The notes beneath the pieces are model-generated. The model saw only the letters and a program-made list of their open reading frames with translations, was not told the origin of the DNA and made no database searches. A DNA stretch of 64,000 bases from Candidatus Mycobacterium wuenschmannii (lineage in GTDB: Bacteria > Actinomycetota > Actinomycetes > Mycobacteriales > Mycobacteriaceae), in contig NZ_CP126981.1 in the NCBI RefSeq assembly GCF_030252325.1, positions 4,836,001 to 4,900,000 on the forward strand, in the 5' to 3' direction. Shown piece by piece: positions 23,610 to 28,772 of the stretch; positions within the stretch are counted from its first letter, which is position 1, and every line of letters starts with the position of its first letter. The position numbers and the translations under genes are program-made.

Positions 23610-24932
23610 TCATGGCGCGTCCTTCAGCACCCGGCGCAGGATGCTCTCGATGGTGTCGAACTCGGTTTGCCCGCTGATCAGCGGGGGAGCGATGACGACC
23701 ACCGGGTCGCCGCGATCGTCGGTGCGGCAGTACAGCCCAGCCGCGAACAACGACGATGCGATGTGCGGCAACAGCTTTGCGGCCTCGGCGCGGGTGAAGG
23801 TCTCCCGCGTCGCCTGGTCCTTGACCAACTCGATCGAGTAGAAGTAGCCCTCGCCGCGCACGTCGCCGACGATCGGCAGGTCGTAGAGCCGCTCGAGGGT
23901 GGCCCGCAGGGCCGGTGCCTGCCGCGTGACGTGGGCGTTGATGCCTTCGCGTTCGAAGATGTCGAGGTTGGCCAGCGCGACCGCCGCCGACACCGGATGG
24001 CCGCCGAAGGTGTAGCCGTGCGGAAACACCGTCGCGCCGTCGTCGAAGGGTTCGAACAGCCGGTCGCTGGCGACCATCGCGCCGATCGGTGAGTAGCCCG
24101 ACGTCAGCCCCTTGGCGCAGGTGATCATGTCGGGCTGATAGCCGAAGTCGTTGCAGGCGAACATCGATCCGATGCGACCCCAGGCGCAGATCACCTCATC
24201 GGAGACCAGCAGGACGTCGTAGTGGTCGCAGATCTCCCGGACCCGGTCGAAGTAGCCGGGCGGCGGCGGGATCGAGCCGCCCGCGTTTTGCACCGGTTCG
24301 AGGAACACCGCGGCGACGGTGTCGGGCCCCTCGAACTCGATCGCCTCGGCGATGCGGTCCGCGGCCCATCGTCCGAATTCCTTTGCATCCGAACGCAATA
24401 GGTCCGACGCGCGGTAGAAATTGGTGTTGGGTACGCGAAAGCCGCCGGGCGTCAGCGGTTCGAACGGCGTCTTGTAGGCCGGCAGGCCGGTGATCGCCAG
24501 TGCGCCCTGCGGGGTGCCGTGGTAGGCCACCGCGCGCGAAATGACTTTGTACTTGCCGGGTTTGCCGGTCAGCTTGAAGTACTGCTTGGCCAGCTTCCAG
24601 GCTGACTCGACCGCTTCGCCGCCGCCGCTGGTGAAAAAGACCCGGTTCAGGTCGCCCGGGGCGTAGCCCGCGATCCGGTCGGCCAGTTCGATCGCGGGCG
24701 GGGTGGCGTATCCCCACAGCGGAAAATAGGCCAGCGTGCCTGCCTGCCGCGCGGCCGCCTCGGCCAGCTCGGCCCGGCCGTGCCCGACCTGCACCACGAA
24801 GAGCCCGGACAGCCCGTCGAGGTAACTCTTGCCGGCGTCGTCGAAGATCGTCACGCCCTCGCCGCGGACGATGACCGGAGGTGTGATGCCAGGCCCGTGC
24901 TTGGCGAAATGCAGCCAGAGGTGATCGCTCAT
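23610..24932 (-). CDS. Class III PLP aminotransferase
   Basis: A 440-residue fold-type I aminotransferase. The PLP lysine is in MITCAKGLTSGYSPIGAM. The cofactor aspartate is in VLLVSDEVICAWGRIG. NRVFFTSGGGEAVESAWKLAKQYF binds the phosphate, and AYHGTPQGALAITG is the usual Tyr-His loop. The C-terminus GYFYSIELVKD and PPLISGQTEFDTIESILRRVL are typical of the beta-alanine:pyruvate / diamine aminotransferase group. It is the counterpart of Rv3329. The start ATG 24932 overlaps the MOSC gene stop by 4 bp (ATGA), so the two are co-translated. The amino donor cannot be assigned. Confidence 0.92.
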   Translation of the reverse strand: MSDHLWLHFAKHGPGITPPVIVRGEGVTIFDDAGKSYLDGLSGLFVVQVGHGRAELAEAAARQAGTLAYFPLWGYATPPAIELADRIAGYAPGDLNRVFFTSGGGEAVESAWKLAKQYFKLTGKPGKYKVISRAVAYHGTPQGALAITGLPAYKTPFEPLTPGGFRVPNTNFYRASDLLRSDAKEFGRWAADRIAEAIEFEGPDTVAAVFLEPVQNAGGSIPPPPGYFDRVREICDHYDVLLVSDEVICAWGRIGSMFACNDFGYQPDMITCAKGLTSGYSPIGAMVASDRLFEPFDDGATVFPHGYTFGGHPVSAAVALANLDIFEREGINAHVTRQAPALRATLERLYDLPIVGDVRGEGYFYSIELVKDQATRETFTRAEAAKLLPHIASSLFAAGLYCRTDDRGDPVVVIAPPLISGQTEFDTIESILRRVLKDAP

Positions 24933-25585
24933 GTGGCACGTTGCCGCGCAAAGCTTTTCAGCTCCGCAGACAGCGCGTCGGCCTTCAGGAGTTCGGGCGC
25001 CAGGCTGGGGTCTTTCATCCGGGCGGTGAAGACCAGTCCGATCGTCACGTCGTGCTCGGGGCGGTATTCGATCGTGATGGCGTCACCCGCGCGGACCTCG
25101 CCGGGGTTCAGGACGCGGAAGTAGGCGCCGGGCACGCCGGCGTCGGTGAAGGTCTTGATCCACCTCGGGCGGTCCAGAAACGAGGCGAACGTCCGGCACG
25201 GCGTGCGGGGCGCGGTGACTTCCAATAGCAATGTGCCGGACCCGATCCGCCATCGTTCGCCGATGCGGGTCTGGGTGAGGTCGACACCGACGGTGGTGAG
25301 ATTCTCGCCGAACATGCCGTTGTCGAGTCGGACCCCGAGCTGGTCCTGCCAGGTGTCGAGATCCTCGCGGGCGTAGGCGTAGACCGCCTGGTCGGGTCCG
25401 CCGTGCAGCTTCGGGTTGCCGATGGTGTCGCCGATCAGCCCGCTGGCGTCGCTCTGTGAATGTCCCGGCGCGCGAACCGCAACGGCGTCCTCGACCGGCT
25501 TTTTGTCGATCCCGGTCAGCGGCGACTGGGCCCGAGGATCGGGGTTGGTGCGCGGCCGCGCCACGTTGACCGACAAGACGTGCAT
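24929..25585 (-). CDS. MOSC-domain protein (YiiM-like)
   Basis: A 218-residue protein with a beta-strand-rich MOSC fold. KLHGGPDQAVYAYAREDLDTW and GMFGENLTTVGVDL are the family core. The conserved cysteine is in TAPRTPCRTFASF. The C-terminal YiiM-type extension follows VRAGDAI. MOSC proteins handle sulfur at molybdenum cofactor or form N-hydroxylated base reductases such as YiiM; which applies here is not evident. ATG 25585 lies 52 bp from the divergent sigJ start. It probably heads the minus-strand unit with the aminotransferase. Confidence 0.9.
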   Translation of the reverse strand: MHVLSVNVARPRTNPDPRAQSPLTGIDKKPVEDAVAVRAPGHSQSDASGLIGDTIGNPKLHGGPDQAVYAYAREDLDTWQDQLGVRLDNGMFGENLTTVGVDLTQTRIGERWRIGSGTLLLEVTAPRTPCRTFASFLDRPRWIKTFTDAGVPGAYFRVLNPGEVRAGDAITIEYRPEHDVTIGLVFTARMKDPSLAPELLKADALSAELKSFARQRAT

Positions 25586-25608
25586 TCGTCCACCATAGCG
25601 GCGCCAGG

Positions 25609-25635
25609 TGCCACGGATTGGGGGTTAGGCTCGTC
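25609..25635 (+). promoter_or_regulatory. Putative SigJ (ECF41) autoregulatory promoter
   Basis: TGCCACG (25609-25615), 16 bp, then CGTC (25632-25635), with ATG 25638 two bases later. ECF41 sigma factors recognise TGTCACA and CGTC. Five of seven -35 bases match, the -10 is exact, and the 16-bp spacing equals that before the neighbouring CMD gene. The message would be essentially leaderless. Confidence 0.65.
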
Positions 25636-25637
25636 AG

Positions 25638-26579
25638 ATGACCTCCGCGCAGCAGGTCACCGAATTCGAGGCGTTGCGGCCGCATCTGCTGTCGGTCGCC
25701 TATCGGCTGACCGGCTCGGTGGCCGACGCCGAAGACATCGTGCAGGACGCGTGGCTGCGCTGGGCGGGGCGCGACGACGACATCCGGGATCTGCGGGCGT
25801 GGTTGACGACGATCGTCAGCCGGCTAGGGCTGGATTGGCTGCGGTCGGCGCCTCGGCGCCGGGAAAGCTATGTGGGCCAATGGTTACCGGAGCCGGTCGT
25901 GACCGGTTTCGACGGCAGCGACCCGCTTTCGGTGGTCGTCTCCCACGAGGATGCGCGTTTCGCGGCGATGGTCGTGCTGGAGCGGCTGTCGCCAGATCAG
26001 CGGGTCGCGTTCGTGTTGCACGACGGGTTCGCCGTGCCGTTCGCCGACGTGGCCGAGGTGCTGGGTACCACCGCGGCCGCGGCCCGTCAGTTGGCGTCGC
26101 GCGCGCGCCGGGCGGTGAGCGCCGAACCGCCGCCGACGCCCGACCCGGCCCACGACGAGGTCGTCGGCAAGCTGATGGCCGCAATCATGTCCGGCGACAT
26201 GGCCGCCACCGTCGCGCTGCTGCACCCGGGCGTCACATTCACCGGCGACTCCAACCGCGCGGCACCGACGGCGGCCCGCGTCATCCACGGCCCGGACAAG
26301 GTCGCGCGGTTCCTGTTCGGTCTCGCTCAGCGGTACGGGCCTTCGTTCATGACGGCGAGCCAGCTGGCGCTGATCAACGGCGAACTCGGCGCGTACACAT
26401 CAGGGTCGCCGGGCGACGACGGGCATCAGCCGATGATGCCGCGCATCACCGCGATGACCGTGCGCGACGGCAAGGTCATCGCCCTCTGGGATATCGCCAA
26501 CCCCGAGAAGTTCAGTGGTTCGCCTCTGAAGGATCAGGCGCAGTCGTCCAAGGCACCCGGCAGGAGTCGCCGGAGTTGA
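25638..26579 (+). CDS. sigJ: ECF sigma factor SigJ with fused SnoaL-like domain (ECF41 group)
   Basis: A 313-residue sigma factor. Region 2 is FEALRPHLLSVAYRLTGSVADAEDIVQDAWLRW. Region 4 is LERLSPDQRVAFVLHDGFAVPFADVAEVLGTTAAAARQLASRARR. After a proline-rich linker, residues from about 175 form an NTF2/SnoaL-like domain (MAAIMSGDMAATVALLHPGVTFTGD) that in ECF41 factors replaces an anti-sigma factor. The C-terminus DGKVIALWDIANPEKF is typical. The length and sequence resemble M. tuberculosis SigJ (Rv3328c, 312 aa). The DGGGR linker signature of the group is degenerate here (DSNR). It faces the CMD gene tail-to-tail with a 68-bp coding overlap. Confidence 0.94.
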   Translation: MTSAQQVTEFEALRPHLLSVAYRLTGSVADAEDIVQDAWLRWAGRDDDIRDLRAWLTTIVSRLGLDWLRSAPRRRESYVGQWLPEPVVTGFDGSDPLSVVVSHEDARFAAMVVLERLSPDQRVAFVLHDGFAVPFADVAEVLGTTAAAARQLASRARRAVSAEPPPTPDPAHDEVVGKLMAAIMSGDMAATVALLHPGVTFTGDSNRAAPTAARVIHGPDKVARFLFGLAQRYGPSFMTASQLALINGELGAYTSGSPGDDGHQPMMPRITAMTVRDGKVIALWDIANPEKFSGSPLKDQAQSSKAPGRSRRS

Positions 26580-27117
26580 AGCCCTGCTCGGTGATGCCGA
26601 GCGCGGAATTCATTCGGGCACGCATGTTTTCGATACCGACCTGGTAGGTCAGCTCGATCACCCCGTCGTCGCCGAAGCGGGCGCGCAGGTCGGCTACCTG
26701 CTCGTCGGTGACGGTGTGTGGGTCGGCCGTCATCGCGTCGGCGTAGGCGATCGCGGCGCGCTCGTCGTCGGTGAAAAGCGCTGAGGTGGCGTAGTTGTCG
26801 ATCTCTTTGAGACGGTCGATGTCCAGCCCGTCGAGGCGCTGCAGCATCGACCCGAAGTCGACGCACCACGAGCAGCCGATGGAGCGCGCGGTCCAGAACA
26901 CCGCCAGTTCGCGGACGTTGGCGGGCAGCCGCCGCGACGCCGACTGCAGCATCGCCTCGTGGACGGCGTTGGCGACCATCAGCCGGGGATGGTGTGCCTC
27001 GACGGCGAACGGCTCGGGCACTTCGCCGAAGCGCCGCTTGGTGTACCGGTACATTGCGCGGACCAGCCAGTTCGCGCGGTTGGGTGGCAGGGGTTCGATT
27101 CGCGTTTTCTGTGTCAT
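26512..27117 (-). CDS. Carboxymuconolactone decarboxylase / AhpD-like protein
   Basis: A 201-residue CMD-family protein. The redox centre is a CxxC pair, Cys82 and Cys85 (TARSIGCSWCVDFG), preceded by RRLPANVRELAVFWTAR, the family helix carrying the proton-relay Glu. The His usually found after the second Cys is absent. LTYQVGIENMRARMNSALGI closes the domain. ATG 27117 is chosen; the frame continues upstream into the glycine-rich gene. ECF41 sigma factors are characteristically linked to such carboxymuconolactone decarboxylase, oxidoreductase or epimerase genes, and a matching promoter lies 8 bp upstream. The 3' end overlaps sigJ by 68 bp in the opposite direction. Confidence 0.9.
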   Translation of the reverse strand: MTQKTRIEPLPPNRANWLVRAMYRYTKRRFGEVPEPFAVEAHHPRLMVANAVHEAMLQSASRRLPANVRELAVFWTARSIGCSWCVDFGSMLQRLDGLDIDRLKEIDNYATSALFTDDERAAIAYADAMTADPHTVTDEQVADLRARFGDDGVIELTYQVGIENMRARMNSALGITEQGFNSGDSCRVPWTTAPDPSEANH

Positions 27118-27125
27118 ACAGATCA

Positions 27126-27152
27126 GACGAGGCAGCCCGCCACTGTGTGACA
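27126..27152 (-). promoter_or_regulatory. SigJ (ECF41) target promoter of the CMD gene
   Basis: On the minus strand, TGTCACA (27152 to 27146) and CGTC (27129 to 27126) are separated by exactly 16 bp and followed 8 bp later by ATG 27117. Both elements match the ECF41 consensus perfectly. The start site would fall a few bases before the ATG. Confidence 0.8.
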
Positions 27153-27175
27153 GGCTGCCGCGTCGACGGCGCGGG

Positions 27176-27823
27176 CTACTTGTGGCTGCCTCCAGCGCCG
27201 CCGGAGGACGTGCTGCCCCCGCCGCTGGAGATCCCGCCGCCGCCGCCGCCCGACATGCCGCCGCCTGCCGAGGCGCCGCCACCCGACATGCCGCCGCCTG
27301 CCGAGGCACCGCCACCTGCTGATGCGCCGCCGCCGGCGTGGCCGCCGTCGCCGCCGGACATGCCTCCGCCGCCCGCTGAAGCGCCACCACCACCGGGATG
27401 GCCGCCGTCAGCGGGCGGGGTGCCGCCGCCGGGGTGACCGCCGTCGGCGGGTGGTGGCGTGTGGTGTCCAGGATCGCCGGGCGCCGGACCCCCTCCGGTC
27501 ACCGGCTGTGGCATCGGCTGCTGGCGTGACGAATCGTATGGTCCACCAACGCATACCGCGTTACCGGTGCCGATGCATGCCGGGTCTTGGGGACCGGTGG
27601 GATGGATGACCTGCGGCGAATTATCCGGGGGAATGCGATGGTCGCTCGCGCACAGGATCGAGATGGCGGGGTTCGCCACGCATCGCGGGTCTCCCGGACC
27701 GGTGATGGGATCGTCCAGGGGAGGCGATGCGAACGCCTGAGCGGTGGCGCCGCACAGCAGCCATGCCGTCGTCGCAGGAATCGTGAACCACGTGTACTTG
27801 GTGAAAACCCTTGCGCCGCGCAT
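27176..27823 (-). CDS. Secreted glycine-rich repeat protein
   Basis: A 215-residue exported protein of no recognised family. A signal peptide covers about residues 1-32 (YTWFTIPATTAWLLCGATAQAFA before SPPLDD). The mature N-terminal part contains two related motifs, TGPGDPRC...C and TGPQDPAC...C, giving four cysteines that probably form two disulfides. From about residue 108 the protein is low-complexity Gly/Ser/Pro with an 11-residue tandem unit (MSGGGASAGGG, DNA period 33 bp at 27249-27314). It starts at ATG 27823 behind a strong AAAGGAGAG. It is followed by the SigJ-dependent CMD gene after 58 bp. The role is unknown; a wall or surface protein is the simplest reading. Confidence 0.8.
   Translation of the reverse strand: MRGARVFTKYTWFTIPATTAWLLCGATAQAFASPPLDDPITGPGDPRCVANPAISILCASDHRIPPDNSPQVIHPTGPQDPACIGTGNAVCVGGPYDSSRQQPMPQPVTGGGPAPGDPGHHTPPPADGGHPGGGTPPADGGHPGGGGASAGGGGMSGGDGGHAGGGASAGGGASAGGGMSGGGASAGGGMSGGGGGGISSGGGSTSSGGAGGSHK
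27249..27314. repeat. 33-bp tandem repeat within the glycine-rich gene
   Basis: Two near-identical 33-bp units, each beginning CCCGACATG on the plus strand (27249 and 27282), encode the 11-residue unit MSGGGASAGGG on the minus strand. Shorter degenerate units flank them. Confidence 0.8.
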
Positions 27824-27919
27824 ATATTGCTCTCCTTTATCGACCTCGTTGTCACAGATGCCGACAACGGTATGGGCCGCAGCTATGGCAATTCGATAGG
27901 GAAGCTATGAATCAGTGAT

Positions 27920-27984
27920 GAGTGCGTGCCTGACGGCGGTGCCGCGTCGAATGTGAAGCCAGCCGCGCACTCGTCAGCCGTCAG
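27920..27984. other. Interleaved inverted repeats downstream of sdhB
   Basis: GAGTGCG (27920-27926) pairs with CGCACTC (27966-27972). CTGACGGC (27930-27937) pairs with GCCGTCAG (27977-27984). The order A-B-A'-B' gives a pseudoknot-like topology or two mutually exclusive hairpins. The last arm covers the sdhB stop codon. It may be the terminator or 3' structure of the sdh operon, but no T-run follows. Confidence 0.4.
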
Positions 27985-28772
27985 CGAGCGAACATCAGCG
28001 CGCGCTTGACCTCTTGGATCGCCTTGGTCACCTCGATGCCGCGCGGGCAGGCGTCGGTGCAGTTGAACGTCGTGCGGCAGCGCCATACCCCGTCGACCTC
28101 GTTGAGGATGTCGAGTCGCTCGGCGGCGCCCTCGTCGCGGCTGTCGAAGATGAACCGGTGCGCGTTGACGATCGCGGCCGGCCCGAAGTAGCTGCCCTCG
28201 TTCCAGAACACCGGGCAACTCGTCGTGCACGCCGCGCACAGGATGCACTTCGTGGTGTCGTCGTAGCGGGCGCGGTCGGTCTGGCTCTGAATCCGTTCCC
28301 GCGTCGGGGGATTGCCACTCGTCATCAGATACGGCTTGATCGCGCGGTAGGCGTCGAAAAACGGCTCCATGTCGACGATCAGGTCCTTCTCGACGGGCAG
28401 CCCGCGGATCGGCTCGATCGTGATGGTGAAGTCCTTCCTGGGCTTCTTGGGCAGCAGATCGCGCATCAGCATCTTGCAGGCCAGGCGGTTGTGGCCGTTG
28501 ATCCGCACCGCGTCGGAGCCGCACACACCGTGCGCGCAGGACCGGCGGAATGTCAGCGAGCCGTCCAGGTAGCTCTTCACGTAGATCAGCAGGTTGAGCA
28601 CGCGGTCGGTGGGCAGGCACGGCACCCGGAAGCTCTGCCAGCCACCCGAATCGGCGTACTGCTCCGGATTTTCCGGGTTGTACCGGGCGATCTTGAGCGT
28701 AACCATGACCGCACCCTCGGGGACGGCCGGGAGCGGCGGATCGCCGGCGGGCGCTTCCTGGAGGTCGGTCAT
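27981..28772 (-). CDS. sdhB: Succinate dehydrogenase iron-sulfur subunit
   Basis: A 263-residue SdhB, which carries electrons from the flavoprotein to the membrane anchor. The 2Fe-2S ligands are CAHGVCGSDA with the later CKML cysteine (RLACKMLMRD). The second domain holds CILCAACTTSCPVFW and CTDACPRGI for the 4Fe-4S and 3Fe-4S clusters. FRRSCAHGVCGSDAVRING is near-universal. ATG 28772 is 16 bp after the sdhA stop. It is the last gene of sdhCDAB (Rv3316-Rv3319 order). Confidence 0.96.
   Translation of the reverse strand: MTDLQEAPAGDPPLPAVPEGAVMVTLKIARYNPENPEQYADSGGWQSFRVPCLPTDRVLNLLIYVKSYLDGSLTFRRSCAHGVCGSDAVRINGHNRLACKMLMRDLLPKKPRKDFTITIEPIRGLPVEKDLIVDMEPFFDAYRAIKPYLMTSGNPPTRERIQSQTDRARYDDTTKCILCAACTTSCPVFWNEGSYFGPAAIVNAHRFIFDSRDEGAAERLDILNEVDGVWRCRTTFNCTDACPRGIEVTKAIQEVKRALMFAR

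Follow-up and report, generated by a model that had tools for sequence, protein, structure and literature searches.

The stretch of DNA analysed here, referred to as the window, comprises 64,000 nucleotides from Candidatus Mycobacterium wuenschmannii. Its sigJ gene (25638..26579, plus strand) encodes an ECF41-type sigma factor of 313 amino acids, in which sigma2 and sigma4 regions are joined by a WLPEP linker and followed by a SnoaL-like C-terminal extension. The preliminary description of this DNA had named the protein SigJ, a factor of the ECF41 type with a SnoaL-like tail and a facing CMD gene, and family searches bear this out: it matches the NCBIfam SigJ model NF007214 at 408.6 bits (cut-off 271) and Mycobacterium tuberculosis SigJ, a member of the same protein family of known structure (PDB 5xe7), at 473 bits over 298 residues. 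Pfam Sigma70_r2 and Sigma70_r4_2 are both matched, and SnoaL_2 scores 24.6 bits, just below its cut-off of 27. The linker was found by reading the translation (GQWLPEPVVTG); WLPEP is the conserved motif of the ECF41 sigma2-sigma4 linker (PMC3426412). Convergent to sigJ is a CMD/AhpD-like gene (26512..27117, minus strand), which specifies a 201-residue protein bearing a CSWC motif, and the 3' ends of the two genes overlap by 68 bp.

On the other side of sigJ, and divergent from it, is a gene for a MOSC-domain protein (24929..25585, minus; Pfam MOSC, 122 bits), which is here placed between sigJ and a class-III aminotransferase gene (23610..24932, minus; NCBIfam PRK06541, 791.7 bits), with 4 bp shared between the MOSC stop and the aminotransferase start. 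Just upstream of CMD and on the same strand is a glycine-rich open reading frame (27176-27823), followed by a gene which we take to be sdhB-like (27981..28772, minus). In many relatives the aminotransferase and sdhB-like genes are, by synteny, conserved neighbours on the sigJ side and the CMD side respectively. The MOSC gene gave no tblastn match (E <= 1e-5) across the DNA of 80 sigJ loci, and the glycine-rich frame, which has no Pfam or NCBIfam match, likewise has no match in those loci. No anti-sigma gene adjoins sigJ, its neighbours being the MOSC, aminotransferase and CMD genes, the glycine-rich frame without a family match and the sdhB-like gene.

The relatives used for comparison are the best 80 sigJ loci, which together with the window give 81 sigJ upstream regions. 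Within the DNA examined for each, a CMD gene convergent to sigJ is present in 75 of the 80; the loci without one are L033, L038, L062, L068 and L071, the first and last of these being short stretches. Negative feedback through convergent transcription was considered and is weakened as a candidate, because although the 3' ends overlap in 40 of the 75 pairs, they lie more than 1 kb apart in 18.

By profile, the CMD assignment is weaker than that of SigJ. The CMD protein scores 21.9 bits against Pfam CMD (PF02627; cut-off 23), and 72 and 51 bits against the peroxidase-related NCBIfam models NF053654 and TIGR01926, both below cut-off. A profile of its relatives found eight PDB sequences at 35-46 bits, the best being Atu0492, followed by AhpD and other CMD-fold proteins. 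Helices make up almost the whole of the predicted model, for which the mean pLDDT is 77, with values below 50 at residues 86-95, just after the CxxC, and beyond residue 178. In AhpD an acidic residue stands 12 positions before the first cysteine and the catalytic histidine four positions after the second. Alignment of 92 CMD sequences, the window's included, shows CSWC, His53, Glu54 and Gly89 to be invariant, and position 70 to be either Glu or Asp. The CMD protein accordingly resembles AhpD/CMD-fold proteins (PDB 2gmy, 6k40, 6ohi, 2oyo) in its CxxC and in the acidic residue 12 before it (Glu or Asp in 92/92), but differs from AhpD in the Trp inside CSWC and in having Gly, in 92/92, four residues after the CxxC. 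It had been noted that the protein keeps CxxC and lacks the usual His, and both statements agree with the alignment, the place of the His being taken from the AhpD pattern. The protein may fall outside the standard AhpD-type peroxidases; its predicted role is presumably that of a disulphide or peroxide-type redox enzyme.

Ahead of CMD, at 27126..27152 on the minus strand, lies an exact copy of TGTCACA-N16-CGTC, as had been described, with the -35 element at 27152-27146, CGTC at 27129-27126 and 8 nt between CGTC and the ATG at 27117. Such an exact match is expected 0.04 times by chance in the window. In the whole genome of 5,102,433 bases it occurs once, as the CMD promoter; the reversed control pattern also occurs once, so uniqueness alone proves little. 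When one mismatch is allowed the genome has 53 sites, counting the exact one, and the reversed control has 39, and the single-genome scan that had been put forward as a means of defining the regulon therefore defines none.

Comparison among relatives is far more telling for the CMD side. The motif was scanned for in 74 of the 75 convergent relatives (L018, which lacks upstream DNA, was dropped) and in the window, and was found in all of them, with no mismatch in 40 rows, one in 34 and two in a single row, and with a spacer of 16 throughout. In the promoter alignment of 73 rows, from which L005, L018 and L046 were left out for their short flanks, every row has GTCAC and CGTC (73/73), and the first base of the -35 is T, C or G. 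By contrast, over the 48 columns that span positions 50 to 3 nt ahead of the -35, the information content is 0 to 0.28 bit per column; an operator proposed from an inverted repeat around the window's CMD -35 was rejected on this account, since the upstream flank is not conserved. On grounds of conservation, we regard the CMD promoter as genuine. Some spacer positions are also conserved beyond the published -35 and -10 elements: C, G and C occur at 6, 4 and 2 nt before CGTC in 68, 65 and 61 of the 73 rows (within 27130-27135, minus, in the window), all three being present in Rhodococcus L081 and both C in L080.

The register between motif and gene is likewise nearly fixed, with ATG following CGTC at 8 nt in 66 of the 73 rows and at 9 nt in five; of the other two, one, from Rhodococcus, has GTG at 7 nt, and one has no start there. 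In the rpoE9 operon of Sinorhizobium (S.) meliloti the same motif precedes the mapped start by 9 nt (PMC3616915), and if that spacing applies here the CMD transcript would begin at about 27117, where the A of its ATG lies. The CMD mRNA is thus probably leaderless, whereas the COE mRNAs of Bacillus licheniformis and Rhodobacter sphaeroides are given a 22/23-nt leader in PMC3426412.

PMC3426412 describes ECF41 factors and their tail, the CxxC-encoding COE genes (here CMD) that adjoin them, and the promoter consensus, and reports no detectable target other than the COE gene. The present locus shares with the Ecf41Bli-ydfG system of B. licheniformis and the Ecf41Rsp-RSP_0606 system of R. sphaeroides the SnoaL-like tail, WLPEP, the lack of an adjoining anti-sigma gene, and a CxxC CMD neighbour whose promoter is TGTCACA-N16-CGTC (TGTT in B. 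licheniformis); it differs from them in that its two genes are convergent with overlapping 3' ends and in the predicted leaderless CMD mRNA. With sigma2, sigma4 and SnoaL-like extension in one protein, a CxxC-encoding gene adjoining and the consensus promoter upstream of that gene, SigJ very probably turns on the facing CMD gene. The half of the earlier proposal that has SigJ activating CMD is upheld in this sense, by the conserved promoter and the linkage of the two genes.

SigJ is not the only factor that could read such a promoter. Further ECF41-like factors, at 37% and 40% identity, are encoded in the same genome, and one of them, at 2643520, lies behind a Pyr_redox_2 gene in an operon preceded by TGTCACA-N16-TGTC (L113 243-269; 305-2379), that is, by the same -35. 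It could be supposed, then, that CMD is transcribed mainly by another ECF41 factor such as this one, with SigJ as one of several readers. Genomes without sigJ bear on the question. SigJ was scored as present in 198 genomes of the genus at E <= 1e-80 and CMD at E <= 1e-30, and comparison of the two sets by eye gave 153 genomes with both, 14 with CMD only, 2 with SigJ only and 29 with neither. Among the 153, sigJ is in two pieces or frames in G076, G134 and G186, and the CMD promoters there still have CGTC (L150, L151, L166, L171, L172, L173, L188). Two of the CMD-only genomes, G086 and G089, contain sigJ fragments, and the promoter has CGTC in G086 and CGCC in G089, which is decayed. In the remaining 12 no SigJ relative exceeds 45% identity, and in every one of them the CMD promoter is TGTCACA-N16-CATC, the -35, spacer and 8-nt register being unchanged. 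All 12 also keep an oxidoreductase-linked ECF41 factor with [A/C/T]GTCACA-N16-TGTC about 1.2 kb upstream, and five of them have no other SigJ-like match at E <= 1e-25. Retention of a changed CMD promoter in this clade implies that CMD control there is independent of SigJ, which speaks for a second reader. Against it, the sites of the paralogue have TGTC, while the CMD -10 is CGTC in 73/73 rows with sigJ and CATC in 12/12 genomes without, as expected if SigJ selects CGTC, and it is to sigJ that CMD is linked. A SigJ -10 consensus quoted in PMC6728331, CGTCCT, also begins with CGTC. Control of CMD mainly by another ECF41 factor is accordingly considered unlikely, and SigJ is retained as the probable principal reader.

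In a quick CMD tree, a branch with SH-aLRT 95 sets the 12 sigJ-less genomes apart from the rest, so the change from CGTC to CATC counts as one event rather than twelve, and the sequence that they share around the -10 and upstream may partly reflect common descent. A common element around the CATC -10, TGTCACATT-N13-GCATCT, a pattern drawn from these 12 sites themselves, has no second site in these genomes, even when one mismatch is allowed. Flanks of 1.5 kb had pointed to relocation of CMD, which was rejected once stretches of 12-13 kb from seven of the genomes (L198-L204) showed the same neighbours. The aminotransferase is matched in six of the seven (where some matches run off the end of the stretch) and sdhB in two, with at least one of them in each, and the order and orientation of CMD are the same as in sigJ-bearing loci. 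On the basis of these 7 of the 12 genomes, sigJ is now read as having been lost in place while CMD stayed. It is tempting to suggest that the promoter passed from SigJ to another sigma factor through a near-single-base change in the -10, where SigJ had kept the G, although we would rate the chance of this at somewhat below even. The oxidoreductase-linked ECF41 factor may have taken over CMD in this clade, but its own sites have TGTC and not CATC.

Sites resembling the CMD promoter are also found elsewhere in the genus. A loosened motif, NGTCACA-N10-CNGNCNCGTC, has at least 150 sites in the 198 genomes, counts being lower bounds: at least 77 stand immediately ahead of CMD (in 77 genomes), at least 51 elsewhere in genomes with a listed CMD place and at least 22 in genomes without one. 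Fifteen regions containing 16 sites that are not at a listed CMD place were inspected, with Pfam applied to four genes and blastp likeness to the others. Three of the sites precede classic CMD genes, four a membrane/PNPOx-type gene, two an alpha/beta hydrolase gene and one a CMD relic; the remaining genes are sigma-like, of no clear type or, by reading, NmrA-like. Another ECF41-like gene is present in four of the 15 regions (L210, L216, L217, L218). In L211, L212, L213 and L214, which represent four genomes, the motif lies 35-42 nt before related membrane-protein genes (70-92% identical), that of L211 having a weak match to PNPOx_N (27.4 bits, cut-off 28.1), and no ECF41-like gene was found near these sites in the regions of 3.6-3.7 kb. 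This membrane-protein gene is a candidate second target of SigJ. In L215, from G115 with a genome of 3.27 Mb, CMD and sigJ survive as relics in several frames and the promoter is still readable as GGTCACA-N16-CGTC.

The preliminary description had gone further, and saw matching promoters on sigJ and CMD, with SigJ activating itself as well as CMD in a complete circuit, which would make the locus a self-amplifying module. The sequence on which this was founded, TGCCACG-N16-CGTC, is present upstream of sigJ as described, with the 16-bp spacing (25609..25635, plus; TGCCACG 25609-25615, CGTC 25632-25635, 2 nt before the ATG at 25638). It has two mismatches to the consensus, and comparison of the two promoters across sister species separates them clearly: the CMD motif is conserved and the sigJ motif is not, there being no copy at the corresponding position in any of the 80 relatives. 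The best match in each of the 81 sigJ upstream regions has two mismatches in 4, three in 19, four in 53 and five in 5, at scattered positions; those with two are the window, L040, L074 and L081, and the latter three have their site elsewhere. Random 135-nt stretches from the same loci reach two mismatches or fewer in 158 of 4000 (4.0%), and exactly two in 116 (2.9%), some of the better matches in this control being in all likelihood the CMD promoters themselves, and 4 of 81 is not clearly above this background. CGTC occurs within 12 nt of the sigJ start in only two of the 80 relatives (L024 and L053). L024 shares the window's TAGGCTCGTC but has nothing resembling a -35, and its best match overall has four mismatches. 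Furthermore, since a mere 2 nt separate CGTC from the sigJ ATG, the S. meliloti spacing would place the RNA start at about 25644, some 6 nt inside the gene, so that the near-leaderless starts proposed for both genes hold for CMD, with its 8 nt, and fail for sigJ, whose motif is too close to the ATG. The sigJ-side motif is judged to be a chance match.

A different element is conserved at this position. TANNNT, the SigA -10 in M. tuberculosis (PMC6728331), ends 6, 7 or 8 nt before the sigJ start in 55, 19 and 2 of the 81 upstream regions respectively, 76 in total, with 0.55 expected per offset. In the window it is TAGGCT (25626..25631, plus), which ends 6 nt before the ATG, and the CGTC of the claimed motif is simply the four bases that directly follow it. 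In two of the five exceptions, L034 and L072, a single base separates TAGGCT from a GTG, and an ATG follows 6 nt later; these are read as misplaced starts. We infer that sigJ has a leaderless, SigA-type promoter at TAGGCT.

Direct self-activation of sigJ was therefore set aside, its motif having two mismatches, lying near background and being unconserved, and the TANNNT element occupying the promoter place. The same promoter on the sigma gene is a facultative trait of ECF41 systems, and it is not found for sigJ. In PMC3426412 (Table 4) the motif is listed before the sigma gene in 38 of 126 orphans, 36 of 55 divergent pairs and 3 of 9 convergent pairs, and TGTCACA-N16-CGTC does precede the start of some other ECF41 genes of the genus (L190, L194 and G004 4314595), so self-activation may occur in the family, though not visibly in sigJ. 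Convergent pairs make up 9 of the 373 loci surveyed there (2%), with the motif before three ECF and four COE genes, usually on just one of the two; the present locus fits this one-motif pattern, which does not require self-activation (PMC3426412). Taken together, a SigJ that drives both itself and CMD is very improbable; there is no good sequence sign of direct self-activation, though an indirect route may exist. Back-to-back divergent pairs of TGTCACA-N16-CGTC occur in L190 and L194, and in G020, G022, G087, G150 and G174. In L194 one of these sites closely precedes another ECF41 gene, an arrangement suggesting that, where the layout is divergent, factor and partner are controlled together.

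Expression of CMD chiefly by read-through from upstream, with the motif of little consequence, can be given hardly any credence, for although the same-strand glycine-rich frame ends 23 bp before the motif in the window and there is no terminator-like site in 25500-27900 (an absence of little weight, as shuffles give 0.8), the upstream neighbour and its distance vary among relatives while the motif is fixed.

The reading that we prefer, with a probability of about 0.78, is a one-way ECF41 switch, in which a SigA-type promoter makes SigJ and SigJ drives CMD. Housekeeping SigA polymerase would transcribe sigJ from the leaderless TAGGCT promoter, and SigJ would then be held in check by its own SnoaL-like tail, as reported for ECF41 relatives. 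Once active, SigJ-RNA polymerase would recognise TGTCACA-N16-CGTC ahead of the facing gene and begin CMD transcription at the A of the ATG, give or take about 1 nt, yielding a leaderless message for a CMD/AhpD-like protein with CxxC.

In M. tuberculosis, sigJ reportedly controls sensitivity to hydrogen peroxide, to judge from the title of a study cited in PMC3426412. SigJ of that organism regulates sigI (PMC4821874), and 10 of the 41 links reconstructed in its sigma network are autoregulatory; sigJ may or may not be one of them. Literature searches joining sigJ, carboxymuconolactone decarboxylase and Mycobacterium returned nothing besides PMC3426412, and searches for TGTCACA with sigma factor, judged by title, no mycobacterial study.

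Judged from its sequence, the locus appears to be a mycobacterial member of a known ECF41 kind, with CMD as an ordinary but well-supported target. It offers a clean candidate for a direct SigJ target in mycobacteria, and puts right the idea, plausible but with little support, that SigJ activates itself. The clade that has lost sigJ, with its change from CGTC to CATC, is the possible novelty and the part most worth following: it constitutes a natural experiment, which could reveal both the -10 base that SigJ needs and the sigma factor that has replaced it.
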